A stretch of 64,000 bases of DNA, taken from contig NZ_KB899241.1 in NCBI RefSeq assembly GCF_000378125.1, positions 1,649,652 through 1,713,651 on the forward strand, in the 5' to 3' direction. Made by a program: the position numbers and the translations under genes. Shown here one piece after another: positions 28,289-54,547 of this stretch. A model generated the notes under the pieces. That model searched no databases. It was not told where the DNA came from and saw only the letters and a list, made by a program, of their open reading frames with translations. Source of the DNA: Rudaea cellulosilytica DSM 22992. Lineage in GTDB: Bacteria > Pseudomonadota > Gammaproteobacteria > Xanthomonadales > Rhodanobacteraceae. The stretch's first letter is position 1, and every line of letters begins with the position of its first letter.

Positions 28289-28501
28289 GGGAACCTCTGA
28301 TTAACCGTAGCGAGCGAAGAGAATTTGTGCGTCGCCGGAGCGCAGGAACCGGAGTGTACAGTTGAGTACATGAGGATTACATGCCGCTCCTGCGGCATGC
28401 CCTGCGGGCCAGCTCCGCTGTTCGCTTTGGCATCCCTGCCTTCGCAGTCCGGGCACCGACGGCGCGCAACATCGAGCGCAGTAAGTTAAACAGAAGTTCC
28501 C
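28289..28501. repeat. Dispersed inverted-repeat element, copy A (213 bp)
   Basis: The ends GGGAACCTCTGATTAAC (28289-28305) and GTTAAACAGAAGTTCCC (28485-28501) are inverted repeats with two mismatches. Inside lie an inner hairpin TGTAC...GTACA (28355-28370) and a perfect hairpin CATGCCG...CGGCATG (28380-28399). The same element occurs at 35735, 43733 and 54315. The right end overlaps the 3' end of algR and supplies its TAA stop. It encodes no protein I can support. Confidence 0.8.
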
Positions 28502-29220
28502 TTGACGAACTTGCGCAATGCGGGCAGGTTGCGCCGGCTCACCTCGAGCTGTTCGTTGCTGTCGGCCAGGCGCACGAAAATGCGTTCGTCGCTCGTGCGC
28601 GAAAGACCGGCGATGCGGTTCTTGGCGACGAGGCAGTTGCGGTGGATGCGTACGAAGCGCTGCTCGAACTCGGCTTCGAGCGTCTTCAGCGATTCTTCGA
28701 TCAGCACCTCGCCACGCGCATGGTGCACACGAACGTACTTGTCGTCGGCGATCAGGTAGTCGATGTCCGCGACCGCCACCATGACCAGATTTCCGCGCAT
28801 GCGCGCGCACAGGTGCGTGCGCTGCGCGGACGCGGCGGAATGCAGCTTCGCCAGGGTCTGGCCGCTGTAGCGCTGCGCGCGCGCGAGCGCAGCCTGCAGG
28901 CGCTCGAGGCGGATCGGCTTGACCAGGTAGTCCACCGCATTCGCCTCGAACGCGGCGAGCGCATGTTTGTCGTAGGCGGTACAGAAGATCACTGCGGGCG
29001 CGGGATCGAGCGTGGCGAGGTGGTGTGCGGCTTCGAGGCCGTTCATCAGCGGCATGCTGATGTCGAGCAGCACAAGGTCGGGGGCAAGCTGCGCGGAAAG
29101 CTCGACCGCTGTGCGCCCGTCGCCGGTCTCGCCGAGCACCTCGATGCCGTCGAGTTCGGCGAGCAGGCTCGCCATGCGCGCGCGCGCGGGAGGTTCGTCG
29201 TCGACAATCAGGACCTTCAT
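28486..29220 (-). CDS. algR: LytTR-type response regulator AlgR
   Basis: A 244-residue response regulator. The receiver domain (residues 1-120) starts MKVLIVDDEPPARARM, has the phosphoacceptor Asp in DLVLLDISMPLMNG (~54), and Lys in YLVKPIRLERL (~105). The C-terminal LytTR DNA-binding domain follows (YLIADDKYVRVHHARGEV, ~162). Partnered in this locus by the LytS/AlgZ-type kinase at 29711-30793, although a small gene separates them. In Pseudomonas the pair controls alginate and type IV pilus genes; roles in this lineage are inferred. The last codons and stop (VKGTSV) come from the inverted-repeat element A, so the C-terminus was probably altered by it. Confidence 0.85.
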   Translation of the reverse strand: MKVLIVDDEPPARARMASLLAELDGIEVLGETGDGRTAVELSAQLAPDLVLLDISMPLMNGLEAAHHLATLDPAPAVIFCTAYDKHALAAFEANAVDYLVKPIRLERLQAALARAQRYSGQTLAKLHSAASAQRTHLCARMRGNLVMVAVADIDYLIADDKYVRVHHARGEVLIEESLKTLEAEFEQRFVRIHRNCLVAKNRIAGLSRTSDERIFVRLADSNEQLEVSRRNLPALRKFVKGTSV

Positions 29221-29333
29221 CGTTGGCGAGAGCGTGGCGTCACCGTCATGGAGCGCCCATTCTAGCCCGTATTTCCGCAGCGTTCCGGCTGCGGAAAAAA
29301 ACCGGGATTGCCCGATCCGATCCGGCGTCGGGT

Positions 29334-29606
29334 TTACTGCTTCGGCTTTTCCTTCTTGCCCCCGACCAACTTTGTCGCTTCCGCCACGCACTGTTTCAAC
29401 TTTTGCTTGCCGGACAGGCCGACCATGTTGTCGCAGCAACGCTGGATTTCCGCATCGGTGCGCGCCTTGTAGGCATCGCCCGTGCAAAGCGCTGCTGCCT
29501 TGTTGGGATCGCTCATGCCATCGGCGTGTGTCGGCGAGGACATCGTCAGCGACGCGCTGGCGGCAGCGAAAACGAATGCGCAGGTGCGCAGGTTCGGAAC
29601 GTGCAT
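29334..29606 (-). CDS. Small secreted cysteine-containing protein of unknown function
   Basis: A 90-residue frame with a plausible signal peptide (RTCAFVFAAASASLTMSSPT, ~residues 7-26) ending near THADG. The mature part has four cysteines (LCTGDA, RCCDN, KQCVAEA), compatible with two disulfides, and a Lys-rich tail (GGKKEKPKQ). It lies between the sensor kinase and algR on the same strand with gaps of about 104 and 113 bp. I do not recognise a family. The signal peptide and paired cysteines argue it is real. Confidence 0.55.
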   Translation of the reverse strand: MHVPNLRTCAFVFAAASASLTMSSPTHADGMSDPNKAAALCTGDAYKARTDAEIQRCCDNMVGLSGKQKLKQCVAEATKLVGGKKEKPKQ

Positions 29607-29710
29607 GAGGGGCTCCTTCGAAAGGTGGATTCAGATCCGCGGACGGACGTCGTTTGTCGTGGCCGGCAGCGGCCCGACAAACTCTGTAGCGGAAAAAGCG
29701 CGCAATCGGC

Positions 29711-30793
29711 TCACGCCGGGCGCGGCGACTCCGTGATTGGCAGTTCGGGCAGCCACAAGGCGACTTCGAAATCCTCGTCGCCCTCGTTCACTCTGAGCGC
29801 ACCGCGCCGGCCAAAGTGGTATTCGATCCGGCTGCGCGTGTTGGCGAGTGCCATGCCGTTTCGCGATGGTGCACGCGCGCCTTCAGCCGGGCGTGGGTTG
29901 GCGATCGTGATCGCGACGCCGTCGCCCTGTCGTCGCGCGCGCAGACTCACCGTGCCGCCGCCGGGCAACGGCTGGATGCCGTGGTGGATCGCGTTCTCGA
30001 CCAGCGGCTGCAGCAGCAGTGCCGGCACGGGCAGGTCTCCCGGAAGATCGGCGGCGAGATCGAACTGCACGTGCAGGCGTTCGCGCAGGCGCAGTTGTTC
30101 GATGGCGAGATAGCGCTGCGCGAGTTCGAGCTCCGCGGCGAGCGTAGACGGCTTGCCGTCGGCACCTAGCGCGGCGCGGAACAGGTCGGAAAGGTCCTCG
30201 ACCGCGCGTTCGGCCGCGACCGGTTCGGTGCGGATCAGGCTCGCGATCGTGTTCATGCTGTTGAACAGAAAATGCGGGCGGATGCGCGCTTGCAGCGCGT
30301 CGAGTCGCGTGCGCGCCTCGGCCTGCACGCGCGCGCGCCACTGCTCGATCACGTAGAAATAGCGCAGCAGCGCCGCGCCGATCAGTGCGCACAGGGCGAC
30401 GTTGCGCAACAGGAAGCGCCATTGATATTGCGCCGGCAAGGTCAGCTTCAAATTGAGCAACTGGTCGAGCACGAAGGCGAGCGCACTGCCGGTGAGCGTG
30501 ATCGCGAGCATCAGCAGGTAAGCGACGAGCACGCCGTGCAGGCGCGGCAGGCGCTGCAGCCACGCGCGCGCCTTGCACAGCACGACCACGCACAGCATCG
30601 CGATCCATTGTACGAACACGGTCACGGTGCCGAGTCGCGACAGCAGCGGCTGCGACTCGTCGCTCGGCGCGATCAGGATCACGAGCACGGTCAGCTCGGC
30701 AATGATCATAACCGCGACGATGACCGGCAGGCTGCAGAAATCCGGCAGCCACGAAGAATCGGGCGTCGACGTCGGCTTCGGTTGCGTGCTCAC
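29711..30793 (-). CDS. algZ: LytS/AlgZ-type sensor histidine kinase
   Basis: A 360-residue membrane kinase. Four hydrophobic segments occupy roughly residues 17-145 (VIVAVMIIAELTVLVILIA, a VTVFVQWIAMLCVVVL run and others). The phosphoacceptor His lies in RPHFLFNSMNTIASL (~174), the PF06580 signature, with the ATPase N-box in PLVENAIHHGIQPL (~265) and a late G-box LANTRSRIEYHFG (~322). It belongs to the group of AlgZ/FimS kinases that lack many classical motifs, and it pairs with AlgR. Gene order with hemC supports the label. Confidence 0.8.
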   Translation of the reverse strand: MSTQPKPTSTPDSSWLPDFCSLPVIVAVMIIAELTVLVILIAPSDESQPLLSRLGTVTVFVQWIAMLCVVVLCKARAWLQRLPRLHGVLVAYLLMLAITLTGSALAFVLDQLLNLKLTLPAQYQWRFLLRNVALCALIGAALLRYFYVIEQWRARVQAEARTRLDALQARIRPHFLFNSMNTIASLIRTEPVAAERAVEDLSDLFRAALGADGKPSTLAAELELAQRYLAIEQLRLRERLHVQFDLAADLPGDLPVPALLLQPLVENAIHHGIQPLPGGGTVSLRARRQGDGVAITIANPRPAEGARAPSRNGMALANTRSRIEYHFGRRGALRVNEGDEDFEVALWLPELPITESPRPA

Positions 30794-30809
30794 GCGGGCT
30801 TCGCGGCTG

Positions 30810-31472
30810 TCAGCTCAGGCGTGCGCCGAGCCAGCGGCGCAGGTCGGCGATTTCCTCGGCGCAGACCTGGTGCGCCATCGGATAACTATGCCATTCGACC
30901 GCATAACCGAGGCGTTGCAGCGCATCGCGGCTCATCTCGCCGAGGCGCAGCGGCACGATCGGATCGACCGTGCCGTGGCCCATGAAAATGGGAATCGCGC
31001 GATTCGCCGGCACGATTTCCACGTCGGTCTTCTCGGCCATCGGCAGGTAGGTCGACAGCGCCATGATACCGCCGAGCTTTTGCGCGTGACGCAGGCCGCC
31101 GGCGAGCGCGATCGCGCCGCCCTGCGAGAAGCCGGCGAGGATGATGTTTTCGCCGACTATCCCGCGCGCGACTTCGCGCGCGATCAACTCGTCGAGTTGC
31201 GCGATCGATGCACGCATGCCGGCCTCGTCCTGCTTCTGCGCAATCTCCATGCCGGTGATGTCGTACCACGCGCGCATCGGCATGCCGCCATTGACCGTCA
31301 CCGGCCGCACCGGCGCATGTGGAAACACGAAGCGCAGTGCGGGCCATGCGCGGTCGACGAGTTCGGGCACGATCGGCTCGAAATCGTGCCCGTCGGCGCC
31401 GAGGCCGTGCAGCCAGATCACCGCGTGTTTCGGATCGGCGGCGGTTTCGATTTCAACGGTTGGTAGGGGCAT
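30810..31472 (-). CDS. Phospholipase/carboxylesterase-family serine hydrolase
   Basis: A 220-residue alpha/beta hydrolase of the Abhydrolase_2 group (acyl-protein thioesterase/carboxylesterase). VIWLHGLGADGHDF (~residues 17-30) forms the oxyanion region, the nucleophile Ser is in ILAGFSQGGAIAL (~110-122), an Asp in GTVDPIVP (~167) and the His in YPMAHQVCAEEI (~200). It is likely a cytoplasmic esterase acting on acyl esters or thioesters. The first ATG of the domain (31472) is used although the frame extends upstream. It ends 16 bp before the algZ start on the same strand. Confidence 0.85.
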   Translation of the reverse strand: MPLPTVEIETAADPKHAVIWLHGLGADGHDFEPIVPELVDRAWPALRFVFPHAPVRPVTVNGGMPMRAWYDITGMEIAQKQDEAGMRASIAQLDELIAREVARGIVGENIILAGFSQGGAIALAGGLRHAQKLGGIMALSTYLPMAEKTDVEIVPANRAIPIFMGHGTVDPIVPLRLGEMSRDALQRLGYAVEWHSYPMAHQVCAEEIADLRRWLGARLS

Positions 31473-31698
31473 GCACGACGAGGCCGGAATGAGGAATTGA
31501 GTGGGGAGCTTACCTAGAACCTTCGTCCCCGCAAAACTCGGCAGCGAAGACCGGGCGCAGAAACGGAGTTTTGCAGGCGGTGGCTGTCCAGGTTCCGCTG
31601 GTGCCGGCATGACCGTGGCAGGCAGCGGGTGACACCTTTCACTTGTGCAGGTATCCGCGTCCGCTATTCTGCGCCCCTCGCACAACCGGACTTCCCGC

Positions 31699-32754
31699 AT
31701 GCTTCGTCGCCTGTTCGTCTTCTTCGCCGCCGTGCTGTTCTTCGTCTCTGCGCTCGCCCATGCGCGCGGCGTGAACGGTGTCGGCGTGGCGGCCGTGCGC
31801 ATCCCCGATCCGGTCAACGGTGGCCAGACCGACGGCTTCGTGTTCTATCCCGCGAAGCAGCCGACGCGCGGCACGACGGAAATGGGACCTTACGATGTCG
31901 CCGCAACGGTGGATGCCGCGGCGATTCCCGGAGCGAAGCCGCTGGTGGTGATTTCGCACGGCAACGGCGGCAGCGCGCTCGGCCATCACGACTTGGCGAC
32001 GTATCTCGCGGCGCGCGGGTTCATCGTTGCCACGCTCAATCATCCCAAAGACTATTTTCGTGATACGAGCGGCGTAGGCCATATCGAAGTACTGGCCGGT
32101 CGCGCGATCCAGGTAAAGGCCGTGATCACGATGCTGCTCGCCGATCCGCGCTGGAAGGCCTTGATCGATCCCGGCCGAATCGGTGTGGGCGGTTTCTCCG
32201 CCGGAGGCTACACAAGCCTGCTCGTCGCCGGGGCGAAGCCGAAGTTCGATCGCTTCATCGGCTTTTGCGAACGTTATCCCCAAGACGCCGACGTCTGCGG
32301 CCATGCCGACGAGTTCAAGGCCGCCGCCGCGAACGAGGGGCTGACCTTGCAGCAGGTGTTCGACGGTATGCAAGGCCAGTTCGGCCGCTATGGCGACACG
32401 GCCGACCCGCGCGTAAAGGCGGCATTCGCGATGGCACCGCTCAGCCTGATCTTCGACGAAACCGGCTTCGAGCGCGTGCGCATTCCGGTCTTTCTTTATT
32501 ACGGCGAGAATGACCAGGTGCTGCCGCCGGAGGCAAACGCAAAGCATATCCGGCCGCTGATCAAGACCCTGGTCGGCGTGAAGGAAATTCCGAATGCCGA
32601 CCACTGGGTGTTTCTGCCGCCGTGCTCGCCGGCGTTGGCCAAGGATATCGAGCGCATGTGTCACGATCCGGCAGGCGTCGACCGCGCCGCGGCGCATGTG
32701 CAGATCAATGCGGATGCGTTCGCGTTCTTCCGCAAAACCTTGGGCGTGCATTGA
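31699..32754 (+). CDS. Exported alpha/beta hydrolase (dienelactone hydrolase-like)
   Basis: A ~351-residue secreted hydrolase with a signal peptide at residues 1-23 (LRRLFVFFAAVLFFVSALAHA). The core has VVISHGNGGSALGHHDLATY (~84-103), the nucleophile in IGVGGFSAGGYTSLL (~164-178), an Asp in GENDQVLPP (~272) and a probable His in NADHWVFLPP (~296). It resembles the predicted dienelactone hydrolase group (COG4188), whose true substrates are various esters. The start is the ATG directly before the signal. Confidence 0.8.
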   Translation: MLRRLFVFFAAVLFFVSALAHARGVNGVGVAAVRIPDPVNGGQTDGFVFYPAKQPTRGTTEMGPYDVAATVDAAAIPGAKPLVVISHGNGGSALGHHDLATYLAARGFIVATLNHPKDYFRDTSGVGHIEVLAGRAIQVKAVITMLLADPRWKALIDPGRIGVGGFSAGGYTSLLVAGAKPKFDRFIGFCERYPQDADVCGHADEFKAAAANEGLTLQQVFDGMQGQFGRYGDTADPRVKAAFAMAPLSLIFDETGFERVRIPVFLYYGENDQVLPPEANAKHIRPLIKTLVGVKEIPNADHWVFLPPCSPALAKDIERMCHDPAGVDRAAAHVQINADAFAFFRKTLGVH

Positions 32755-32913
32755 CGCTTTTTTCGGCGCGCGAGAGGTTTGACGGTCTCGGGACGATTGG
32801 TTTGAGGTCGGGCTACATCGCTATCTGTCTTTGAGGAGACATGACTTTCGGCCGCTTGCTTGGATGCAGGCCTCGGCTATGCTGCGCGCTTTGCGCGCAA
32901 CCGGGATTCACGC

Positions 32914-35382
32914 ATGCCACGCCGTCTGCTCAGCCTCCTTACCGCTTCGCTCGTCTTCGCCTCCGCAGCGGCGCAGGCCGATACCGCATCCACGGCGTCC
33001 GCAGCACTGACCCTGGAAACGATCATGGCCGACCCGGCCTGGATCGGCGCCGCGCCGCAGCAGCCGTACTGGTCTGCCGACGGCAAGGCGGTCTACTACT
33101 CGGCCCGGCGCGGGACCACAGCGATAGTCGACCTGCATCGCATCGACCTCGCCGCAGGCAAAGATCAAGTCGTCGATGGCGCCGCGATGGCGACGAGCGA
33201 CGGCAGCGATGCGGTTTACGACCTCGCCGGTACGCGCGCGGCGTTCGCGCGCAACGGCGACATCTTCGTGCGCGACCTGCGCAATGGCGCGCTGAGCCAG
33301 GTCACGCGCACGCCGGAGCGGGAATCCGCGCCGCAGTTCTCCGCCGATGGGCGCATGTTGAGCTTCCGTTCTGGCAACGACTGGTTCGTGCACGATCTCG
33401 CCAGTCACGTGACCGCACCGGCCGCCGTGCTCAAGGCCGAGAAGGATCCCGAGGCCAAACCGGCCGACGACGACCTGCGCGATTTCCAGCTGCGCACGTT
33501 CTCGACGTTGTCGAAGCTCAAGGCCGACAAGGACGCACGCCGCGAACATGCGGAGGAAATGCGCCGCGCCGATTCGACGCGTGCGAGCGCGCCGTTCTTC
33601 CTCGGCGACGAGGTGAAGCTGCTCGACACGGAGCTTTCGCCCGACGGGCGCTGGCTGCTCGTGGTGACGATGGCGAAGAAACACGACGAGGGCCGCCGCG
33701 GCGAGTTGACCCGCTATGTCACGGAATCCGGCTACGAGGAGCCGGAGAAGGAGCGCATACGCGTCGGTCGCAATGCGCCGGCACCGCAGTCGCTGCAGTT
33801 GCTCGACCTCGTCGCGCACAAGGCGTATCCGCTCGCCCTCGACGAGCTGCCCGGCATCCATGACGATCCGCTCAAGAGCGTGCGCGAGGAGAACACCAAG
33901 GCTGCAAGCAAGGCCGGCGCCGCGGAGAAAACCGATGCGCAAAAGAAGGAAAAGGCGGCGGACAAACCGAAGCAGCGCGGCGTGCGCATCGTCTCCAACG
34001 CCGATGACGGCGGTGGCGGCGGCATCGTCTGGAGCCGTGACGGCCAAGCGCTTGCGATCCAGTTGCGCGCGATCGACAACAAGGACCGCTGGATCGCGAC
34101 GGTCGACCTCGCCGCGCACAAGCTCGTGCCGCAGCATCGCCTGACCGACCCGGCCTGGATCAACTGGAATTTCAACGAATTCGGATTCCTGCGCGACGAG
34201 CGCACGCTGTGGTACGAGTCGGAGGAGGCCGGTTATGCGCATTTGTATACCAAAGCGGCGGGCGCCAAGGCTGCGGCGCTGACGAGCGGAAAATTCGAGG
34301 TCTCGCATCCGCAACTGTCGACCGACGGGAAATGGTTCTACCTGCGCGCGAATGCCGAAGCACCCTACGCCTATGATGTCTACCGTGTGCCAGCGGCCGG
34401 CGGCAAACTCGAGCGCGTAACCCAGTACAAGGGCATGCAGGATTTCGCCCTGAGTCATGACGACAGGCAATTGCTCGTCACCCATTCGTCGAGCTACGTG
34501 CCGGCGCAACTCGCGATCGCCAATGCCGACGGCGCTGGCACTCCGCGAGAACTCGGTGACACGCGCAGTGCGGCGTTCGCCGGCATGACCTGGCTTGCGC
34601 CGGAGATCGTCGAAGTGCCGTCAACGCACTTCAAGGGCGTCATTCATGCGAAGTTATACAAGCCTGCGAATGCGGACAAGTCCGCGAAGCGTCCCGCGGT
34701 GGTCTTCGTCCATGGCGCCGGCTACCTGCAGAACGTGCACCTGCAGTATCCGGCATATTTCCGCGAGCAGATGTTCCACAACCTGCTCGTGCAGAAGGGC
34801 TATGTCGTCATCGACATGGACTACCGCGGTTCGGAAGGCTACGGTCGCGACTGGCGCACGGCGATCTACCGGCAGATGGGCCACCCGGAACTCGAAGACC
34901 TGCTCGACGGCAAGAAGTATCTCGTCGACCACGCCAATGTCGATCCGAAACGCGTCGGCATCTACGGCGGTTCGTACGGCGGCTTCATGACCCTGATGGC
35001 GCTGTTCCGCGCGCCGGGCGAGTTCGCCGCGGGCGCCGCGCTGCGTCCCGTCACCGACTGGATGCAGTACAACCATGAGTACACCTCGAACATCCTCAAC
35101 ACGCCGCAGGACGATCCGATCGCCTACAAACGTTCGTCGCCGATCGAATTCGCCGACGGCCTGCGCGATCCGCTGCTGATCTGCCATGGCGTGATCGACG
35201 ACAACGTGTTGTTCGAGGACTCGATGCGCCTGTACCAACGCCTGATCGAGCTGCACAAGGACGGTTTCACGATCTCTCCCTATGCACTCGATCGTCACGG
35301 CTTCACCAATGCCGATTCATGGCTGGACGAGTACAAGCGTATCTACCGGCTTTTCGAGCAGAATATCGGCCAGAAAAACTGA
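32914..35382 (+). CDS. S9-family serine peptidase (prolyl oligopeptidase/DPP IV-like), exported
   Basis: A ~822-residue exported peptidase. Signal peptide [20 protein letters not shown], then an N-terminal beta-propeller (~residues 30-560) and a C-terminal alpha/beta hydrolase domain. The catalytic Ser is in [13 protein letters not shown] (~690), the Asp in [11 protein letters not shown] (~765) and the His in [10 protein letters not shown] (~796). A charged, Lys/Ala-rich insertion near residue 330-350 probably forms a surface loop. Family members cut oligopeptides after Pro or other residues in the periplasm. The first ATG of the signal (32914) is chosen. Confidence 0.9.
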
Positions 35383-35395
35383 GGGGCGCGTCGAG

Positions 35396-35737
35396 ATGAG
35401 CGATCTGCCGCGTTGCCCGAAATGCAATTCCGAATACACCTACGTCGACGGTGAGCTGTATGTCTGCCCCGAATGCGCGCACGAGTGGCCGCAGCAGGCC
35501 GTGGCGGAAGCCGTCGAGGAAGCGCGCGTCGTGCGCGATGCGGTCGGCAACGTCCTCGCCGACGGCGACACGGTGACCGTGATCAAGGATCTCAAGGTCA
35601 AAGGCTCTTCGTCGGTGGTCAAGGTCGGCACCAAGGTGAAGAACATCCGTCTCGTCGACGGCGATCACGACATCGACTGCAGAGTCGAGGGCATCGGTCA
35701 GATGGGCTTGAAATCGGAGTTCGTGAAGAAAGCCTAG
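35396..35737 (+). CDS. PhnA/YjdM-like zinc-ribbon protein
   Basis: A 113-residue protein with an N-terminal zinc ribbon ([10 protein letters not shown] and CPECAHEW, residues 7-30) and a C-terminal SH3-like domain ([17 protein letters not shown] to [20 protein letters not shown]). It matches the PhnA/YjdM family, historically called alkylphosphonate utilisation proteins but without a proved role in phosphonate breakdown. It follows the S9 peptidase by 13 bp. Its TAG stop lies within the terminal repeat of element B, so the 3' end borders a repeat insertion. Confidence 0.85.
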
Positions 35738-35947
35738 AACCTATCTCAAAACTACTGCGCTCGACATTTCGCGTGCCGGCGGTGCTCGGACTGCGGAGGC
35801 AGGAGGCCGAAGCGAACAGCGAAGCTGGCCCGCAGGGCATGTCGCAGGAGCGGCATGTAATCCTCATTTACTATTTGTAAACTCCGGTTCCTGCGCTCCG
35901 GCGACGCACGAACTGTCATCGCTCGCTACGTTTTGAGATAGGTTCTA
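35735..35947. repeat. Dispersed inverted-repeat element, copy B (213 bp)
   Basis: Ends TAGAACCTATCTCAAAAC (35735-35752) and GTTTTGAGATAGGTTCTA (35930-35947) are perfect 18-bp inverted repeats. The inside is the reverse-strand form of copy A, and the inner hairpin reads TTTAC...GTAAA instead of TGTAC...GTACA, a compensated change. The left end contains the stop codon of the PhnA-like gene. Confidence 0.8.
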
Positions 35948-36011
35948 ACCGTTGCCCGGGACGACATCGCCACCAATTGCGATTGAACGGTCGTAGTCCC
36001 ACAATCGATGC

Positions 36012-37289
36012 ATGACGACAGGGCGGCGTGCGTTGGGGTTTTGGTCGGCGACTGCACTTGTCGTCGGCAACATGATCGGCTCGGGCGTGTTCCTGCTGCC
36101 CGCTTCGCTGGCGCCCTACGGGCAGGCCAGTCTCTACGGTTGGGCCCTGTCGGCGTCGGGTGCATTGCTGCTTGCCGGCGTGTTTGCCTATCTCTCGCGG
36201 CGCCACCCTGTTGCCGGTGGTCCGTATGCCTACGCGCGCATCGCGTTCGGCGATTTGACCGGCTTCATCATGGCCTGGAGCTACTGGATCTCGGTCTGGT
36301 GCGCGGTCGCTGCGATCGCGGTCGCGTTCGCCGGCAGCGTCGCGGCGATCTTCCCCGCGCTTGCCACACCCGCAAATGAAGCGGCGTGTGCGCTGATCGT
36401 GTTGTGGCTCGGCACGGCGTTCAACATCGCCGGCGTGCGCACGGCGGGCATCGCCCAGCTCGTCATCACGATCCTGAAACTGCTGCCGCTGTTCGTCATC
36501 ATCGCGGTTGGCGCAAGCAAGCTCGATGCGCAGTCGTTCACGCCGTTCAATCCGAGCGGACAAGGCTGGCTGTCGGTGACGACGGTGACCGCGGCGCTCG
36601 CGCTGTGGGCCCTGCAGGGCATGGAGTGCGCGACGATTCCGGCCGAGCATGTCGATGATGCCGAGAAGACCATTCCGCGTGCGACCCTGCTCGGCGTCGC
36701 GCTCGCCGCGGCGGTGACGATCGCGGCTTGCACCGTAGTGCTCGGCCTCGTGCCATTGGATCGGCTGGCCACGTCGACCGCGCCGTTCGCCGACGCGGCG
36801 TCGCGCTTGTGGGGGCAGGGCGCAGGTACGGCGATGGCGGTGGCGATGGCCGTGTCCTGTCTCGGCGCACTCAACGGCTGGATCCTCGTTCAAGGCCAGG
36901 TGCCGTATGCGGCGGCCTGCGACGGATTGTTCCCGGCGTATTTCGCCCGCGTCGATGCGAACGGTACGCCGCGTATCGGCCTCGTCGTCGGCAGCGTGCT
37001 GGCGACCTTGCTCGTGCTCGCGAACTTCGCGGGTTCGCTGGTCGCGGTGTTCACCGCGTCGATCCTGCTCGCGACGGCCGCGGCATTGTTGCCGTACGCG
37101 TTCAGCGCGGCGGCGATGCTTCGCCTCGAGTCGCGCCTGGATCGCCCGTCTGGATGGCGCCTCGGCGTCGCCGCGCTGGCGTTCGTCTACGGGCTATGGG
37201 CGCTGGTCGGCACCGGGGCCGAGGCCTTGATCTGGGGTGCGGGGTTGCTGCTCGCGGGCATGCCGTTCCACTTTCTGCCCCGCCGTTGA
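36012..37289 (+). CDS. APC-family amino acid permease
   Basis: A 425-residue transporter with about 12 hydrophobic segments. The N-terminal APC signature VVGNMIGSGVFLLPASL (~residues 17-33) and GGPYAYARIAFG (~69-80) with its substrate-binding region place it in the amino acid/polyamine/organocation family. WALQGMECATIPAEHVDDAEKTIPRA (~199-224) is similar to arginine/agmatine antiporters. It moves an amino acid or amine across the inner membrane; the substrate cannot be told. It is preceded by element B and begins about 64 bp after it. Confidence 0.85.
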   Translation: MTTGRRALGFWSATALVVGNMIGSGVFLLPASLAPYGQASLYGWALSASGALLLAGVFAYLSRRHPVAGGPYAYARIAFGDLTGFIMAWSYWISVWCAVAAIAVAFAGSVAAIFPALATPANEAACALIVLWLGTAFNIAGVRTAGIAQLVITILKLLPLFVIIAVGASKLDAQSFTPFNPSGQGWLSVTTVTAALALWALQGMECATIPAEHVDDAEKTIPRATLLGVALAAAVTIAACTVVLGLVPLDRLATSTAPFADAASRLWGQGAGTAMAVAMAVSCLGALNGWILVQGQVPYAAACDGLFPAYFARVDANGTPRIGLVVGSVLATLLVLANFAGSLVAVFTASILLATAAALLPYAFSAAAMLRLESRLDRPSGWRLGVAALAFVYGLWALVGTGAEALIWGAGLLLAGMPFHFLPRR

Positions 37290-37310
37290 GGGCACTTCGA
37301 AAAACCGTAT

Positions 37311-37335
37311 CGCGCAACATCGAGCGCAGTAGGTT
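37311..37335. repeat. Short remnant of the dispersed inverted-repeat element
   Basis: CGCGCAACATCGAGCGCAGT followed by AGGTT matches the right-hand part of copy A (28462-28487) with one mismatch. No left end was found, so this appears to be a decayed or truncated copy just after the permease gene. A 13-bp match CTACTGCGCTCGA at 26021-26033 may be another scrap. Confidence 0.45.
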
Positions 37336-37442
37336 CTTCGGGGTACCTTGATAGTTTACGCCGAGGCTGGCGTGTTCAAAAGACTATCGCCGGCAAAGCA
37401 TCTGCGTCAGGATACGCGCCTTCCCGCGCCCACGGCCAACTC

Positions 37443-39645: not shown

Positions 39646-39782
39646 GGCTTATTGTCCCATTCAGCTAGAGCGCGACCAAGGGGCCGAACGGGCGTATGAA
39701 CCGCACCAGTTTCACTGGCGCGGGTTCCGCGGCTGACGTATGATGGCTTGCTATACCCGGGGTAGGGCTTAACGAGACGCAT

Positions 39783-41052: not shown

Positions 41053-41064
41053 CGTCCTCAAGCT

Positions 41065-41664
41065 AGAGCTTCCACTCGTCCTGCGGACGAGCGGGTGACT
41101 TTTCTTGACTTCGGGCATCCTGCCCTCCGCCGCTTTGCGGCCAGCTCCGCTGTTCGCGCCGCTCCTGCGGCGCAGTGCTCGTGCAAAGAAAAGTCACCAA
41201 AAGAAACACGCCCCAGAACATTGCGCCCGGCGCGCATCCTGCGCACCGGGTCCGCGTCAGTGGCCGGGTTCCGCTAATTGCACGTCCCTGTGCAATAGCG
41301 GAATGCGCGCGCTCCACGCGCGCACCCCTACGGGGCCTGATCGTCCGCTGCCGCCGCAATGTGATGGGGACCCGGAAGAGCCAAGAGCAGCGCGCATCCT
41401 GCGCGCCAGGCTCTGGCACTTGATCTGGTTTTTGATCTTCGGGCCCCCGTTTGCCGCGGCGAGGGCAGGACGGAAATGTCCATGAGGATCGCGCGCACGA
41501 TGCGCGCGAGTTCGTTGCTTGGACAGGGACGTTCAATCAACGAACCCCGGCCTGTCCTCGCGCACTGCCGCAGGCAGCGCGGCATCCGGGGCGCATTCTC
41601 TTTGGTTATCTTTCTCTTGTGCGAGCAAGAGAAAGTAACCCGCGCGCCGGACGCGCGCGGAAAG
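41065..41664. repeat. Long dispersed intergenic repeat, copy 1 (~600 bp)
   Basis: This block is homologous over nearly all its length to 61928-62486. Both start AGAGCTTCCACTCGTCCTGC and end near GGACGCGCGCGGAAAG, and both carry a hairpin of the form GGTTA(C)TTTTCTT-loop-AAGAAAAGTAACC near the right end (41604-41640 here). The left hairpin of copy 1 is interrupted by about 70 bases between its arms. Frames across it are shared in both copies but lack any protein signature, so I treat it as non-coding. It lies between two convergent genes. From 41665 to 41807 I see nothing further. Confidence 0.75.
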
Positions 41665-43445: not shown

Positions 43446-43732
43446 GCTGGCAGGCTCATTGTTGGTTGCAAAACCGGGCATCCTGCCACGGCTTGCAAGA
43501 AAACGGTCGAGGCGAAGCCGCGCCACGTTTTCCGCGACCAGCGCTTCTGTGCTCGTCGCGTCGGCACGTCCCTGTGCCGATGTGGCAGCCTCTCGTCGGA
43601 GAATGCGTTATTCAGGTGCGATTGTGCGGTTTTGCCGCGTGCGCAGCAAATATTCGCCGTTTCGTTCCTGTTCGGTTTCGCTTCGCGAAATGCACGCTCT
43701 GATAACAAAAATTTGGTAATAATGCAGGGAAA
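43446..43732. other. Intergenic stretch without a supported gene
   Basis: This is the upstream region of etfD, bounded by element C on the right. Short frames exist on both strands, but none has a signal, motif or ribosome site that would make it a gene. A promoter for etfD must lie here; I cannot place it. Confidence 0.4.
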
Positions 43733-43874
43733 GGAACCTCTGATTGACCGTAGCGAGCGAAGAGAATTTGCGCGTCGTCGGAGCGGAGGAACGGGAGTGT
43801 ACGTAGAAGTACATGAGGATTCCGAGCACCGCCGGCCCGCAATTATCGAGCGCAGCAGGTCAATCAAAGGTTCC
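43733..43874. repeat. Dispersed inverted-repeat element, copy C (142 bp, internally shortened)
   Basis: Ends GGAACCTCTGATTGACC (43733-43749) and GGTCAATCAAAGGTTCC (43858-43874) are inverted repeats with one mismatch. The inner hairpin TGTAC...GTACA (43798-43813) is kept, but about 70 bases of the inside, including the CATGCCG hairpin, are missing compared with copy A. It lies 15 bp before the amidase start and therefore within its 5' leader. Confidence 0.8.
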
Positions 43875-43889
43875 AAAGGGGAGAACTGA

Positions 43890-45320
43890 ATGAATGTCGA
43901 ATTGAGTCCAGTCGCCACCGAATCGCTCGCGCCGCTGCCGCCGCCCGATGCGAAGCGGCTGCGCGGCGCGGAGCTGTGCCAGATCCTGCATTGGCTTGCC
44001 AGTGGGCGCATCAGCGCGCAGGCGCTCACGCAGACCTACCTCGACGCAATCGCAGCGCAGAATGCCAAATTGAATGCCTACGTCGCGCTCAATTCGCGCG
44101 CGCTCGACGAAGCGCGCGCCGGCGACGTGCGCCGCGCGAGCGGCAAGATCGGTCGCCTCGACGGCGTGCCGGTCGCGATCAAGGACAACTTCGACGTGGC
44201 TGGTTTGCCGACCGGTTGCGGCCTGCCGGGCGCGCATGCGCCGGCGACGGCAGACGCCCATGCGGTGGCGCGCCTGCGCGGTGCGGGTGCGGTGATCCTC
44301 GGCAAGACCCAGGTGCCCGAGGCTGCTCTCGCCGCGACCAGCAACAATCCGCACACCGGCGCCGCGCACAACCCGTTCCGCCACGGCTATCAGGCCGGCG
44401 GTTCCTCCGGCGGATGCGCGGCGGCCGTAGCTGCGGGACTTGCCGCGGTCGCGATCGGTTCGGACAGCCTCGGTTCGATCCGCATCCCGGCGAGCTATTG
44501 CGGCCTGTACGCGCTCAAGCCGACGAGCGGGGAAATATCCGTGCGCGGCATGGTTCCGGCCGCGCGTCGTCTCGATTCGGTTGGTTTGATGGCGCGCAGC
44601 GTGCACGACCTCGGCGTGCTGCTGCACGTGCTCGGCGGCCATGACCCGGGCGATCCGCGCTCGCGCCGTCGGCGCGTGGAACTTGCGCTGCCCGACTGGG
44701 AGCCTGGCAAGCTGCGCGTCGGCCTGCTCGGCGATCTCGGTGCGTTCGGCATCGAGCCGGGCGTCAAGTATGCGTTCGAGCGTGCGCTGATGGCGCTGAC
44801 CCACGAGCTCGAAAATCGCCGTGACGTCGGCTTTGGCGATTTCCCGCTGGCGCGCGCACGTCGCGCGGCGTTCTTCATGATCGAGGCCGAAATGCTGGTG
44901 ACGCATGCGCGGGCGTTCGCCGACACCGCGCATCCGGTATCGCCTGAGATGCGCAAGTGGCTCGACTACGCGCGCGGAAAATCCGCCGCCGATTACGTCG
45001 CCGCCGATCGCCTGCTCGATGACGCCGTCGTCGCCATGCGCAAGATGTTCGCCGAGGTCGACGTGCTGGTCACGCCGACCACGCCGCAGACCGCGTTCCC
45101 GCTCGAGGCGCCGTTGCCCGACAATTCCGGCGACTTCACCTGCATCGCGAACCTCGCCGGCTTGCCCGCGGTCACGATCCCGATGGGCATGACGCTCGAC
45201 GGCCTGCCCGCCGGCATGCAGTTCATCGGCCCGCCCGGTTCCGATCTGCGTCTGCTCGAACTCGCCGAGGTTTGTGCGGCCGCGCTTGACGCGGCTCCGG
45301 CTTACCCAGTTGGCGGATGA
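43890..45320 (+). CDS. Amidase-signature family hydrolase
   Basis: A 476-residue amidase. The catalytic Lys is in [14 protein letters not shown] (~residues 95-108), the cis-Ser in [16 protein letters not shown] (~170-185) and the nucleophile in [16 protein letters not shown] (~193-208). The usual form of the last motif is GSDTGGSIRIPA, so the T-G pair reads S-L here. The family splits a range of amides, from acetamide-type compounds to acyl-glutaminyl substrates, so the substrate is not known. GGGGAGA lies directly before the ATG, after element C. The protein has no signal peptide. Confidence 0.85.
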
Positions 45321-45372
45321 GTCCATCGGGCAAAGTTTTCGATTGCTCGCACGCAGCGTCAGCCCATATCCG

Positions 45373-47429: not shown

Positions 47430-47569
47430 GGATCGCCGAACCAGGCGATGGATTCTTCAAAACGCTGCCGCTAAAGTGCCGGGCACCGCTTTCGATGGCG
47501 AATCCCGGCTTCATCGTTGCCGGCTCTTCGCAATCCGAAGCACGCCCATTCTTGCCAAAGGTCGACGCC

Positions 47570-47989: not shown

Positions 47990-48080
47990 CCGTTGCGCAA
48001 CCCCGTCGGGCACCGCATGGCGCAGCGGTGCCGGCGGTACGCGCTGCCGCGGCGGCGATCGCGGCTACAATGCGCGCCGT

Positions 48081-49370: not shown

Positions 49371-49373
49371 GCG

Positions 49374-49400
49374 AAAAAGCCGGCTCACGGCCGGCTTTTT
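49374..49400. terminator. Bidirectional terminator between convergent thrE-like and H-NS-like genes
   Basis: A stem AAAAAGCCGG / CCGGCTTTTT with a short loop lies four bases after the thrE-like stop and 21 bases before the end of the convergent H-NS-like gene. Its A- and T-runs allow it to act on both strands. Confidence 0.85.
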
Positions 49401-49420
49401 CTGTTGCCATCGCAGCGAAA

Positions 49421-49741
49421 TCAGACCAGCAGGTCTTTTTCCTTCTTGCCCGCGGCGAGCGCGGCGTTGAACCAGCGCGGTCGTTTGCCGCGGCCTGACC
49501 AGGTTTGCGCGTGATCAGCCGGATTGCGGTACTTCGCCTTGGCCGCGCTGCGCGCCTTACGACCCGCGCCGCGGCCATCGAACAGTTCTTCGAGAGTGAC
49601 GCCTTCGGCCTTGAGGAGGGCGAGAACCTTCTCGCGCACCCTGATAATTTTTTCCTTCGCCAATTCGTGCTTGCGCGATTCGGCGCGGTGGATCAATTCG
49701 TTCAGCTGATGCTGATTCAAGCCCTTGAGATTGATTGCCAT
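49421..49741 (-). CDS. H-NS-family histone-like nucleoid protein
   Basis: A 106-residue nucleoid protein. Residues ~5-55 form a coiled-coil oligomerisation helix (HQLNELIHRAESRKHELAKE) and the C-terminus is the DNA-binding core KYRNPADHAQTWSGRGKRPRW (~70-90). This is the H-NS/BpH3/XvrA-type core that prefers AT-rich DNA and silences foreign genes. Given the AT-rich regulatory DNA in the catabolic island it could matter there. It is convergent with the thrE-like gene. Confidence 0.92.
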   Translation of the reverse strand: MAINLKGLNQHQLNELIHRAESRKHELAKEKIIRVREKVLALLKAEGVTLEELFDGRGAGRKARSAAKAKYRNPADHAQTWSGRGKRPRWFNAALAAGKKEKDLLV

Positions 49742-49904
49742 TCATATTCCCCTTGCAGACAGCGGCGGCGGCCCCGTGAGAACGGTCTCATGAAAGTCGA
49801 CAACGTTCAACCGTGAATCCGGGATTTAAATTCCTTCTTGAAGTCGCGAATGTCACGACTCGTCGGCTGCGATTCCAGCGCTTCGTGGCCGAAGAGGCCG
49901 GGCT

Positions 49905-51605
49905 TCATCCGCGCACGAGCGCGATCACTTCTTCGCGTGTGAGCTGGCGGCTTTCGCTGTCGCGGCGGCCACGATATTCGAACGTCCCCGCGGTGAGACC
50001 GCGCTCGGACACGACGATGCGATGTGGGATGCCGATCAGCTCGATGTCGGCGAACATCGCGCCGGGGCGCAGGCCGCGGTCGTCGAGCACGGTATCGATG
50101 CCGGCCGCATTCAGCTCGTCGTAGAGCGCGGTCGCGGCCTCGTTGACCTTGGCGTCGTTCTTCGGATTGATCATACAGACGGCGACGCGCCACGGTGCCA
50201 TCGGCTCGGGCCAGATGATGCCGGCCTCGTCGTGGTTCTGCTCGATCGCCGCGGCGACGATGCGCGACACGCCGATGCCGTAGCAACCCATCTGCATCGG
50301 CCGGTTCTTGCCGTCGGCGTCGAGCACGTTCGCGTTCATCGCCTCGGAATATTTCGTACCGAGCGCGAACACGTGGCCGACTTCGATGCCCCGCGCGATC
50401 TTCAGCGTACCTTTTCCATCGGGCGATGCATCGCCTTCGACGACCTTGCGGATATCGGCGACGATGTCTGGCTCGGCCAAGTCGCGGCCCCAGTTGACGC
50501 CGGCGACGTGGAAATCGACCTTGTTCGCGCCGACGACGAAATCGGCCATCGCCGCGACTTCGCGATCGGCGACGACGTGGACCTTGCTGCGATCGGCCCC
50601 GACCGGACCGAGATAACCGGGCTTGGCGCCGAGCGCGTCGAGGATTTCCTGCTCGTTGGCGAGGCGGTATTCGGCGAGCCCGGCGATCTTCTGCAGCTTG
50701 ACCTCATTGACCTCGTGGTCGCCGCGTACCAGCGCCAACACAAAACCTTGCTCGCCGATCACGCAAACCGATTTCACCGTGCGCTTGATGTCGATACCGA
50801 GCAGCGCGGCGACGTCCGCGCAGGTCGACTTGCCCGGCGTTGGCACTTCGTGCATTGCCTCGCCTGCGCTCGCGCGCGGCGCGGGGGCCAGCGAGGAGGC
50901 GAGTTCGACATTGGCCGCGTACTCGGACGTGTCGGAAAACACGAGCGCGTCCTCGCCCGAATCGGCAAGCACCTGGAACTCGTGGCTGCGGCTACCGCCG
51001 ATCGCGCCCGTGTCGGCGGCGACCGCGCGGAAGGCGAGGCCGAGGCGGGTGAAGATGCGCGCGTAGGTCGCGTACATATTGTCGTACTCGCGGCCGAGGC
51101 CTTCCTCGTCGAGGTGGAACGAGTAGGCGTCCTTCATCAGGAACTCGCGCGCGCGCATCACGCCGAAGCGCGGGCGGATCTCGTCGCGGAACTTGGTATT
51201 GATCTGGTAGAAATTGACCGGCAGCTGCTTGTAGCTCTTCAGCTCGCCGCGGGCGAAGTCGGTGACGACTTCCTCGGCGGTCGGCGCATAGCAGTACTCG
51301 GCTTCCTTGCGGTCCTTGATCTTGAGCAGTTGCGGGCCGAACTTCTGCCAGCGGCCGGTTTCATCCCAAAGCTCGCGCGGCTGCACGGTCGGCATGATGA
51401 CTTCGAGTGCGCCGGCGCGATTCATTTCCTCGCGCACGATGTTCTCGACCTTCTTCAGTACCTTGAGGCCCAGCGGTGACCAGGTGTAGAGGCCGGCGGC
51501 GTGCTTGCGCAGCATGCCCGCGCGCAGCATCAGCCGGTGGCTGGCAATCTCCGCATCAGAGGGCACTTCCTTGACGGTGGCGAGATGGAATTGGGACAGG
51601 CGCAT
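49905..51605 (-). CDS. proS: Prolyl-tRNA synthetase
   Basis: A ~566-residue class II synthetase of the bacterial (ProS type 1) form. Motif 1 region [22 protein letters not shown] (~residues 40-60), motif 2 with [21 protein letters not shown] (~138-158), an editing INS domain (~225-380, with [19 protein letters not shown]) and motif 3 in [21 protein letters not shown] (~440-460) are clear. The C-terminal anticodon-binding domain ends [16 protein letters not shown]-like. The ATG at 51605 starts the family's conserved N-terminus. Confidence 0.95.
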
Positions 51606-51969
51606 GGGATTCGCGGAGCTCGACAGGGCCCGCGATTGTAGCTGCACTGCACAAAGCGGCCAAACCGTAGCGAATTGTCCTAGGTGGCGGTTGAACCTTG
51701 AGGACATGCGCTGCGAAGAATGATCATCCGTGCCGATGATCAGGAATCAGACGTTGTCTAGATGGCCGTTACCATTGCGTTCGCGGTGGTTTCAGTATGG
51801 ACTTGTGCTTCCTGCGCCCCTTCTTATCCATCAGGCACGAACTTGTGCCAAGACGACGATTGGGCGAGTGCATAGCGGAACTGAGTCTCAAAACTCTTTG
51901 CCTCAGGAAGTAGCCGAAAGCAACCAGATTTTGGATACAATAACGACCGTTTAAGCAAGGGGAACGGTC
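51606..51969. other. Intergenic region with one inverted repeat
   Basis: No gene is supported here. The only notable structure is TGATCAT-N8-ATGATCA (51721-51742), a perfect 7-bp inverted repeat upstream of proS. It could be a regulator site or a weak hairpin; no link to a regulator can be made. Confidence 0.4.
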
Positions 51970-52923
51970 ATGAATAGCAAGCGCTTCGTCCGTAGTCTGT
52001 TATTGCTTTTGCTCCAGTTCGTATTTGCCAGCGCACTCCACGCGCAAGCCACACGTACCTGGGTTTCCGGGGTCGGCGACGACGCCAACCCGTGCAGCCG
52101 TACCGCGCCTTGCAAGACGTGGGCTGGCGCAATTTCGAAAACAGCGCCTGGGGGCGAAATTGATGCCCTCGATCCGGGTGGCTTCGGCGCGCTGACGATC
52201 ACCAAATCGATCTCTATCGTCGGCAAGGGTGGAACGTCTTCGACACTCGTCGCGGGAACAAACGGCTTCGTCGTCGCCGCGCAATCGGGCGATGTGGTCA
52301 TGATCCGAGATGTGGAATTCGATGGCCTTCTCGGCAACGGAAACGCCAACGCAGGGTTGAACGGAATCCGGTTCATCAGCGGGGGTGCGCTTTATATCGA
52401 CAATTGCCGGATATTCGGCTTTTCCCAGCAAGGCATCGACATCAACCCGAGCAATAACGCAAGTGTGAACATTTCGCGCACGGCGATCAGCAATATCGGT
52501 CCGCAAATTGTTGGCTCCGGGGCGATCTGGATTCATCCCACCAACGGCGCCACGGCAAATGTGACCATCACCGATACTGTCATGGAGTACAGCGGACGCG
52601 GACTTCGCGCCGAAGACAATTCCCGCGTTGTAGTGCACAACAGCGTCGCGAGCAACAACGTCAACCGTGGCTTTATCGCATTTTCCAATTCCGCCGCAGT
52701 GACGCTTTCCATCGAAGGAGGAAGTGTCTCGTCAAATGCAACCGGCGGCATTTATTCGCACGGGAGCCAATCGACAGTGCGCTTGTCCAACGTGCAAGTC
52801 ACAAACAATCAGGTAGGGCTGTTCGCCGATGGCAGCGGGAATATCGTTTCCTTCGGCAACAATCGCGTGAGCGGCAATACGTCTGGCGATGGAGCCCCGA
52901 CCGGCTCGGTCAATCAGATCTAG
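51970..52923 (+). CDS. Secreted right-handed beta-helix protein
   Basis: A 317-residue protein with signal peptide KRFVRSLLLLLLQFVFASAL (~residues 4-23). The mature protein begins TRTWVSGVGDDANPCSRTAPC with a disulfide-type cysteine pair and continues as a beta-helix (GGALYIDNCRIFGFSQQGID, then repeated short strands) up to the end. It is a member of a common family of secreted pectin-lyase-fold proteins without a known enzyme activity. It has no adjacent partner genes. Not related by family to the longer beta-helix protein at 22830 beyond the fold. Confidence 0.8.
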   Translation: MNSKRFVRSLLLLLLQFVFASALHAQATRTWVSGVGDDANPCSRTAPCKTWAGAISKTAPGGEIDALDPGGFGALTITKSISIVGKGGTSSTLVAGTNGFVVAAQSGDVVMIRDVEFDGLLGNGNANAGLNGIRFISGGALYIDNCRIFGFSQQGIDINPSNNASVNISRTAISNIGPQIVGSGAIWIHPTNGATANVTITDTVMEYSGRGLRAEDNSRVVVHNSVASNNVNRGFIAFSNSAAVTLSIEGGSVSSNATGGIYSHGSQSTVRLSNVQVTNNQVGLFADGSGNIVSFGNNRVSGNTSGDGAPTGSVNQI

Positions 52924-52951
52924 ACGCAGTGGCTGCGCCAAAGCACAACAA

Positions 52952-53398
52952 TCACTGGGAATTTCGACAGTAGATCGCGACGTTTTGCTGTACCGCAACT
53001 GTCCGCTCGGCACGCGCTGTCGCGTCGAGCGGCTTGCCGCTGGCCGCATCTGCGAGCTCGGATTTGCCTTGCAGTAGTTCCAACGTCGAGCGTGCCTTGT
53101 CGCAGTTCTGCTTGCGGTTCTCCTGCGCGTCGATGGCCTCCCGGGCCGGCAGGTTCGGATCGACCGGAGCTGAACCGGTCGGTGGCACTTGCGTAGCGGG
53201 TTCGGTGTTTTCCGCGCCCGCGACGCGCATGCGCCTCGCGTTGGTCTGACCTCGCGGTGGGGTGTCGGAATAGTGGATAACGCCGTTTGCATCCGTCCAG
53301 CGATATAGCTCGGTGGCTTCGGCTTGCGCGAACAGCGTGGCGAGCGCGAGCGGAAGCCATCTGATGCAACGTGATGGAACGGCGTTGGCACGGGGCAT
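52952..53398 (-). CDS. DUF4124-domain exported protein
   Basis: A 148-residue protein with N-terminal signal (RCIRWLPLALATLFAQAEAT) followed by the DUF4124 motif ELYRWTDANGVIHYSDTPP (~residues 29-47). The remainder is charged, Ala/Glu-rich and ends with two widely spaced cysteines (RKQNCDKA, IYCRNSQ). DUF4124 proteins are common in Xanthomonadales and beta/gammaproteobacteria; the role is unknown but periplasmic. It is convergent with the beta-helix gene. Confidence 0.85.
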   Translation of the reverse strand: MPRANAVPSRCIRWLPLALATLFAQAEATELYRWTDANGVIHYSDTPPRGQTNARRMRVAGAENTEPATQVPPTGSAPVDPNLPAREAIDAQENRKQNCDKARSTLELLQGKSELADAASGKPLDATARAERTVAVQQNVAIYCRNSQ

Positions 53399-53507
53399 GA
53401 AAGGGCTCCGGAACAGCTGATTCGCTTTAGATTATAAGGCCTGTTGACCTTACCTCGCGAGAGCTTGCGGTACACTTCGTTCATCGCCTAGAACCGGCAG
53501 GATCAGC

Positions 53508-54314
53508 GTGGATTCCGTTTCCGACCCCAAGCCTAAACCGCATCGCGGGATCTACTTGCTGCCTAACCTGTTCACCACGGGTGCGCTGTTCTCGGGCTTC
53601 TATGCCGTGCTTGCTGCGTTCGCCGGCAATTATGTCGATGCCGCGATCGCGGTGTTCGTCGCCGGCATCCTCGATTCGCTCGACGGTCGCGTCGCGCGCC
53701 TGACCAACACGCAAAGCGAATTCGGCGTGCAGTACGACTCGCTGTCGGACATGTGCAGCTTCGGCATCGCGCCCGCGGTCGTCATGTACTGCTGGTCGCT
53801 GTCGACGCTGAAGACGTACGGCCCGTTCTGGGGCAAGCTCGGTTTCGGCGCGGCCTTCGTTTACGCCGCCTGTGCGGCGCTACGTCTGGCCCGCTTCAAC
53901 ACCCAGGTCGGCGTGGCCGACAAGCGCTATTTCCAGGGACTGGCGAGTCCGGCTGCCGCGGGCCTGCTGATGTCGTCGCTGTGGGCGGCGAACGAATACG
54001 GCATCAACGGCACGATGGCGCAGTTCGTCGCGCCGTTCCTCACCGTATTGGCGGGCGGCCTCATGGTCAGCCGCGTGCGCTACTGGAGCTTCAAATCGGG
54101 GCCGAAATCGGACAAGGTGCCGTTCGCGATCATCCCGATCGCAGTGCTCGTCCTCGTCGCGCTCTATGTCGACACCGCGCTCGTGCTGTTCGTGATCGCC
54201 GGGCTGTACGTGCTTTCCGGCCCGCTGCTGACCTTGTGGGGCATGCGCGAAGCGCGCGGCCGCCGCGATGTGCGCAGCGACGATGCCAAGCCCGGCGCGG
54301 AGCCGCCGCCGTGA
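53508..54314 (+). CDS. pssA: CDP-diacylglycerol-serine O-phosphatidyltransferase
   Basis: A 268-residue integral membrane enzyme that makes phosphatidylserine for phosphatidylethanolamine synthesis. The CDP-alcohol phosphotransferase motif is DSLDGRVARLTNT (~residues 62-74) followed by EFGVQYDSLSD (~77-87), giving DG-x2-AR-x8-G-x3-D-x3-D. N-terminal LLPNLFTTGALFSGFYAVLA is typical of the group. A GTG start (53508) is used. Element D begins with the base after its stop codon. Confidence 0.9.
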   Translation: MDSVSDPKPKPHRGIYLLPNLFTTGALFSGFYAVLAAFAGNYVDAAIAVFVAGILDSLDGRVARLTNTQSEFGVQYDSLSDMCSFGIAPAVVMYCWSLSTLKTYGPFWGKLGFGAAFVYAACAALRLARFNTQVGVADKRYFQGLASPAAAGLLMSSLWAANEYGINGTMAQFVAPFLTVLAGGLMVSRVRYWSFKSGPKSDKVPFAIIPIAVLVLVALYVDTALVLFVIAGLYVLSGPLLTLWGMREARGRRDVRSDDAKPGAEPPP

Positions 54315-54547
54315 GAACCTGTCCTCCAAGCTACTGCGCTCGGCATTTCGCTTGGGTACGGTGCTCTGACTGCGCAGGCAGGATGCCGAAGCGAACATTC
54401 GCGCAGCGAATGGCCCGAAGGGCGAACCGCGGACGCGGTGAGTCATCCTCATGTACTCGACTGTACACTCCGGTTCCTGCGCTCCGTGCGCACGCCCGAT
54501 TCTGGATCGGATCGGGCCTTCGCTCGCTACGCTTGGAGAACAGGTTC
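54315..54547. repeat. Dispersed inverted-repeat element, copy D (233 bp)
   Basis: Ends GAACCTGTCCTCCAAGC (54315-54331) and GCTTGGAGAACAGGTTC (54531-54547) are inverted repeats with one mismatch. The orientation is as in copy B. The inner hairpin TGTAC...GTACA lies at 54453-54468. The right end is 8 bases from the next start codon, so the element makes up essentially the whole leader of the GAF-phosphatase gene. Confidence 0.8.

Follow-up and report, generated by a model that had tools for sequence, protein, structure and literature searches.

Candidate MITE-like elements with IS5-type ends and a conserved folded core in Rudaea cellulosilytica

We analyzed a 64,000-nucleotide stretch of the genome of Rudaea cellulosilytica DSM 22992 (contig NZ_KB899241.1, positions 1,649,652 to 1,713,651; hereafter the window) that carries several copies of a short, dispersed, hairpin-like element. 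These copies are probably non-autonomous elements akin to miniature inverted-repeat transposable elements (MITEs), with IS5-type ends and a conserved core that folds on one strand. In the mechanism that we favor, IS5-type terminal inverted repeats of ~17 bp would let an IS5-type transposase supplied elsewhere move the elements in trans. The targets would be TNA- or CTAG-like and would often coincide with a stop codon, which duplication of the target would preserve, and the core between the ends would fold as one long hairpin on one strand and be foreign to the insertion sequence (IS) copies seen. Two sources of paired change seem to be combined in one molecule, the matching of transposon ends and the folding of the inner stem, and the element makes testable how one conserved core gains the ends of several transposases.

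Elements of the window and their anatomy

A preliminary description of the window had reported four elements. Direct reading and matches to a covariance model, R1, placed all four where they had been reported, within 1–2 bp, with strands corrected to plus for A and C and to minus for B and D. Element limits in the window were set by the terminal repeat and the flanks, and open reading frames (ORFs) are given where an element touches or precedes one:

28290–28500, plus strand: element A, long form; 77.7 bits with R1; CTTG at 28286–28289 and at 28501–28504 (read directly)
35737–35945, minus strand: element B, long form; 100.7 bits with R1; flanks CTA and TAA, without exact duplication; the TAG stop of a plus-strand ORF (35282–35737) at its right end
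35735–35752: terminal repeat arm of B, TAGAACCTATCTCAAAAC, common with the IS5-family element L251 over GAACCTATCTCAAA
35930–35947: second terminal repeat arm of B
37290–37347, plus strand: fifth copy, ends-only; 27.2 bits, E = 4.4e-5 in the window; terminal stem and parts of loop A without the core, similar to loci L189–L191; TTGA on both sides, the left one including the TGA stop of a plus-strand ORF (36012–37289)
43733–43874, plus strand: element C, short form; 136.3 bits with R1; AAA at 43730–43732 and 43875–43877; upstream of an ORF starting at 43890
43733–43749, plus strand: left terminal repeat of C
43858–43874, plus strand: right terminal repeat of C
54315–54547, minus strand: element D, long form, one arm bearing a small extra hairpin; 52.1 bits with R1; TGA at 54312–54314 (the stop of a plus-strand ORF, 53508–54314) and at 54548–54550

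In a search of the 64 kb, E values with R1 were 3.8e-34 (C), 1.1e-24 (B), 1.5e-18 (A), and 1e-11 (D), and these four matches are not due to chance; the 51 rows on which the model was built include seven loci of the same genome (L007, L017, L022, L023, L025, L026, and L028), one of which, L022, is element C itself. The preliminary description held that both ends had changed together in every copy, leaving arms that still pair. This was true of B (18 nt, 100% complementary), C (17 nt, 94%), and D (18 nt, 94%); A pairs only imperfectly, and an inverted-arm search at the setting that gave the arms of B, C, and D reported none for A because its arms carry mismatches. The inner hairpin read as described, TGTAC..GTACA in A, C, and D and TTTAC..GTAAA in B. 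By contrast, C had been thought to have lost about 70 bp internally, and it proved to be the common short form, to which the long form seen in A, B, and D adds an inner module of ~70 nt.

This assignment follows from the copies found across the 4.34-Mb genome (6 contigs), where 49 of 67 were short, like C, and 18 were long. With element A as query, 53 matching pieces were found (40 of 104 candidates scored); the covariance model gave 80 matches (150 scored), some of which were the same palindromic place on both strands. Parsing of 78 raw matches and removal of duplicate and chance ones left the 67 copies, to which further, more degenerate copies may have to be added. Ends-only copies of 54–62 bp also occur. 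The copies are dispersed and not arrayed, unlike integron attC sites in cassette arrays.

The whole element is modeled as one long hairpin, which from the ends inward consists of a terminal stem (~17 bp), loop A (GTAGCGAGCG / CGCAGTAG), an inner stem, loop B (GCGCAGGAACCGGAG / TGAGGATTCCGAGCAC), and an apex stem. The inner module of the long form also stands alone at one locus (L029, 1500–1584), without element ends and hairpin. The small extra hairpin of D (window 54490–54518) is of the type CCGATCCTATCTAAGATCGG. Hairpins of this type recur in other copies of this genome, such as L004, L007, L013, and L174, and occupy either the left or the right inner-stem arm.

Covariation and probable strand-specific folding

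Multiple observations bear on why paired positions change together. First, compensated change, as claimed in the preliminary description, was real and strong. We aligned short copies (100 measurable, 71 non-redundant, 51 used), and RNAalifold proposed 49 pairs, of which 34 had changed on both sides. Paired cells made up 94.5% in this structure compared to 74.0% after shuffling, and the covariation score was 0.533, compared to 0.161 with shuffled partners and at most 0.092 with the partner slid by 1–3 columns, a comparison in which the structure is favored because it was derived from that same alignment. Loop columns were nearly invariant and stems variable, and loops A and B were kept across distant genera.

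Second, the two stems differed in the mismatches through which they changed. We paired the arms without giving an advantage to G·T and counted changes by parsimony. Of 166 short copies, 23 were dropped for unusual arm spacing, which left 143 on the tree, and two pairs with less than 50% Watson-Crick pairing stand outside the totals; the counts are approximate because the tree was built from the short element itself. In the inner stem, there were 64 changes to G·T and 24 to A·C (p = 2e-5) together with 91 double changes; in the terminal stem, there were 82 and 58 (p = 0.05), respectively, with 214 double changes. Within the R. cellulosilytica genome, G·T and A·C cases numbered 54 and 9 in the inner stem (with paired neighbors) and 24 and 28 in the terminal stem. 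An earlier raw count in other genomes (81 of 100 copies; inner stem 105 versus 19, terminal stem 35 versus 7) ignored shared ancestry and is superseded by the tree-based count. An excess of G·T on one strand is expected from single-strand folding, and the inner-stem bias points to a plus strand that folds, either as single-stranded DNA or, more probably, as RNA. The terminal stem behaves mainly like double-stranded ends, with little strand bias in its wobble pairs.

Third, in 127 of 143 copies the plus strand folded more stably as RNA than the minus strand did, an excess that is partly due to a constant contributed by the shared loops. For the four window copies, the strands differed little in RNA fold stability, the long ones slightly favoring minus and C plus.

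The proposal in the preliminary description, that selection acts on pairing and that a transposase end is not the whole explanation, is supported for the inner stem, given its wobble bias, and is incomplete for the terminal stem, whose co-variation is better explained by transposon ends. We infer that joint change of the two ends reflects the need of each to fit a transposase, or the copying of one arm onto its partner, and not a need for the terminal stem to pair. Arm copying, by template switching during replication, could also keep the arms complementary in a plain IS5-derived MITE without any folding function. The IS5-type ends, the flank duplications described below, the nearly equal wobble types of the terminal stem, and a terminal pair that changed on both sides in orthologous copies of C are all compatible with that explanation, but the inner-stem wobble bias would not be expected from arm copying alone, nor would loops that stay nearly invariant across distant genera while the stems vary, and we regard a plain MITE as unlikely.

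Terminal repeats, IS5-family ends, and insertion sites

The preliminary description had named, as an outcome that would count against it, a known IS-derived MITE whose ends match a resident transposase. This outcome was seen in part, as ends of two types were shared with IS5-family elements. Type B has such a counterpart in L251, an IS5-family element of G003, a genome of the same genus (839 bp between outer bases; NF033580, 219.8 bits), whose 17-nt arms are 94% complementary and have GAACCTATCTCAAA in common with element B. A Xanthomonas end, AGAGCGGCTAACAAAAC, is found on hairpin elements, on an ends-only copy of 67 bp, on elements ~450 bp long, and on copies that include pieces of an IS5-family ORF; these pieces scored 66.5, 26.2, and 104.3 bits, below the curated cut-off of 110, and the locus that holds them (L240) has an interruption of its own and one end with three mismatches. 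The A/C type only resembles the left end, GGGAACCTCTGAACAAC, of an insertion at L271 that carries an NF033581 gene (342.5 bits) and has CTAG on both sides; the two sequences are not identical, and the right end of that insertion matches worse. Among 12 IS5-like loci of the genus searched for such ends, a good pair was present only in the G003 loci, L251 and L261.

On direct reading, neither loop A nor the core was visible inside L251 or the IS of L271, and the core differs from what the IS copies seen contain between their ends. Many MITEs likewise lack an interior derived from their parent IS. In a separate Xanthomonas case (L272, 218–1834), an IS110-family gene (NF033542, 189.8 bits) lies inside a hairpin element of the ~450-bp type with AGAGCGGCTAACAAAAC ends.

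Flanking sequences of the R. cellulosilytica copies carried direct duplications more often than shuffled partners at one of the end lengths compared. With an end length of 17, which was the best of 12 lengths, the others giving lower values or background, four-base duplications flanked 8 of 64 copies (0.4 expected from shuffled partners) and three-base duplications flanked 7 of 64 (2.0 expected). When the ends were left flexible, 51 of 195 copies had a duplication, mostly TTA, TAA, TCA, or CTAG, a count made without a chance control.

Element C has a counterpart at the same site in G010, a second genome of the genus, and is absent from the site in three relatives (L284, L285, and L286); the flanks are diverged, so that its exact target is not fixed. 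After insertion, one terminal pair of C changed on both sides (GATTAACC/GGTTAATC versus GATTGACC/GGTCAATC in R. cellulosilytica and G010), and each of the two copies also has uncompensated changes. In a set of 28 G010 loci that counts one place twice, only four R. cellulosilytica copies found a locus matching both flanks; two were the same insertion (one with a different core type) and two had different ends, a set too small for a statistic. At one insertion site (L151 in R. cellulosilytica, L314 in G010), the apex stems read TTTAC and TGTAC, and a hairpin insert is present in only one of the two copies, differences that suggest conversion between copies.

Placement at stop codons

The elements frequently lay exactly at stop codons and in one orientation. 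Of 195 copies, 66 had their right end between –3 and +2 relative to the stop codon of a minus-strand ORF, and 12 had their left end at a plus-strand stop codon (66 versus 12, p = 3e-10), counts that rest on a crude choice of ORFs. The bias was seen in R. cellulosilytica (31 versus 5 of 65) and in other genomes (35 versus 7 of 130). In the window, B and D follow the majority orientation at stops, and the ends-only copy has the reverse one. Because TNA-like targets include stop codons, a duplication at a stop leaves the gene whole. At ends away from called stops, TCA occurred 16 times and TGA 5 times, a hint of an insertion preference.

Observations that weigh against mobile elements with a folded core

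Several results fit poorly with the reading that we favor. With respect to mobility, 50 distinct left 17-mers occur among the 64 R. cellulosilytica copies (of 67) that have both loop A anchors, which is far more variety than a single transposase would presumably tolerate; most copies lack an exact flank duplication, even with flexible ends; and the R. cellulosilytica genome gave no match to the IS5-type transposase models PF01609, NF033580, and PF13586 (of other families, PF01797 alone was searched), so that movement would either lie in the past or depend on an enzyme outside the search. The orientation bias at stop codons is not explained by symmetric ends. With respect to folding, 31 of the inner-stem G·T cases in this genome are a single inherited position, and most transcription from upstream genes would be of the minus strand, whereas the wobble bias favors plus. 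Finally, the terminal stem leans to G·T too in the wide set (p = 0.05), and this lean, together with the two-sided change in C, may mean that the ends are under some pairing constraint.

Distribution across genomes

In an even sample of the phylum (E 1e-6), the 51-copy model matched 69 of 398 genomes and 45 of 213 genera; these are minimum figures, as just 8 candidates per genome were scored. Among 30 near genomes, R. cellulosilytica included, 20 matched: 16 of 16 in the genus, 0 of 2 in other genera of the family, and 4 of 12 in the rest of the order. Copy numbers within the genus ranged from 1 to 74. Such patchy occurrence would fit horizontal spread or loss.

The exact core pattern was present in at least 104 stretches of genome contigs. 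Among the matches listed were Xanthomonas, Dyella, Rhodanobacter, Herbaspirillum, Curvibacter, Mitsuaria, Buttiauxella, Erwinia, and Methylocaldum, as well as draft bins labeled Scalindua, Desulfobacula, and Paludibacteraceae, which possibly reflect contamination. In E. coli, the core was found in 5375 of 5426 genomes, at a median of 5 places each. The copy between cysP and ucpA of E. coli K-12 (L281, ~5680–5800), whose record has no repeat annotation there, carries GAAACC/GGATTTC in place of the GGAACC/GGATTCC of the 51 aligned copies. The loop B helix, elsewhere invariant, has thus changed there in a compensated way.

We tentatively consider a broader possibility, in which the core would be a selfish structured module that distant taxa have in common, has recurrently gained the matched ends of different IS5-type transposases, and has been installed at stops in one orientation. 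Its folded plus strand would take part, in the form of RNA or of single-stranded DNA, for example by binding transposase or a host protein. If this were so, the sX9 "small RNA" discussed next would derive from a mobile hairpin, as a fragment of its transcript.

Relation to known families

The preliminary description knew of no named family that matched. For about half of the element this no longer stands, as the Rfam family RF02228 (sX9) covers one of the arms together with the apex, on the minus strand and thus opposite to the plus-strand fold of the element. In the window itself, no known RNA family was called at the standard cut-off. With the sX9 model, a Xanthomonas phaseoli locus (L033) scored 93.9 bits and element A 38.8, below the gathering cut-off of 44, which was reached in L033, L036, and one L040 copy.

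sX9 is described from Xanthomonas transcripts, as far as the title of its Rfam entry tells, and is listed among the 20 most prevalent small RNAs (PMC9029176). Two other reports list it in Herbaspirillum (PMC6337395) and describe several sX9 genes as upregulated under copper (PMC10924375). The elements might be a family of regulatory RNAs, comprising sX9 and relatives, that sits in untranslated regions and is maintained because pairing is selected for, mobility being a secondary trait. Transcripts, copper response, placement at the 3′ ends of genes, and covariation would all suit such a family. Nevertheless, insertion sites differ between close relatives, copy number varies across the genus as given above, and the wobble bias lies on the strand opposite to sX9, making a primarily regulatory role improbable. 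On these results sX9 is half of a mobile hairpin, so that sX9 counts and expression studies may need rereading. No description of sX9 as a mobile hairpin was found in the literature searched, which was available in part; the original description of sX9, outside that search, may contain one.

Like IS5-family MITEs, the elements are short, non-coding, and dispersed, and have IS5-type terminal repeats and, in some copies, TNA- or CTAG-like duplications; unlike them, they have a core with a covarying single-strand fold that is common to several genera and occurs under different end types. BoxC and other enterobacterial repeats resemble them as dispersed palindromic repeats. The E. coli RSA repeat, with ~6 copies, is a candidate for identity with the element. 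Identity with BoxC was ruled out by copy number, as ~32 copies of 56 bp are reported for E. coli (PMC2267715), compared to the median of 5 places for the core.

REP/RAYT systems share with the elements a hairpin and a location near gene ends, but the elements are longer and have IS5-type terminal repeats. A RAYT with matching ends, a candidate named in the preliminary description, did not emerge: the R. cellulosilytica genome encodes one Y1_Tnp protein (PF01797), and the 3.3 kb examined around its gene contained no full element, only short loop A-like and core-like matches with up to 2–3 mismatches. Transposition of the folded plus strand as a single strand, in the style of IS200/IS605 or REP/RAYT, would also fix orientation, in keeping with the bias at stops and the presence of a Y1_Tnp protein, and a plus-strand wobble bias suits single-stranded DNA as well as RNA. 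To our knowledge, however, IS200/IS605 and REP/RAYT elements do not have terminal inverted repeats shared with IS5 or TNA-like duplications, and together with the surroundings of the Y1_Tnp gene this makes such a route very unlikely.

Other repeats in the window

Three further repeats were noted. Positions 43455–43585 match another dispersed repeat of ~120 bp in the genus mates G006, G013, G002, and G010. Two copies of a repeat of ~560–600 bp lie at 41062–41664 and 61925–62487, with blocks that are 82–98% identical. A 300-nt direct repeat (6682–6981 and 10568–10867; 86% identical) probably represents parts of paralogous genes.

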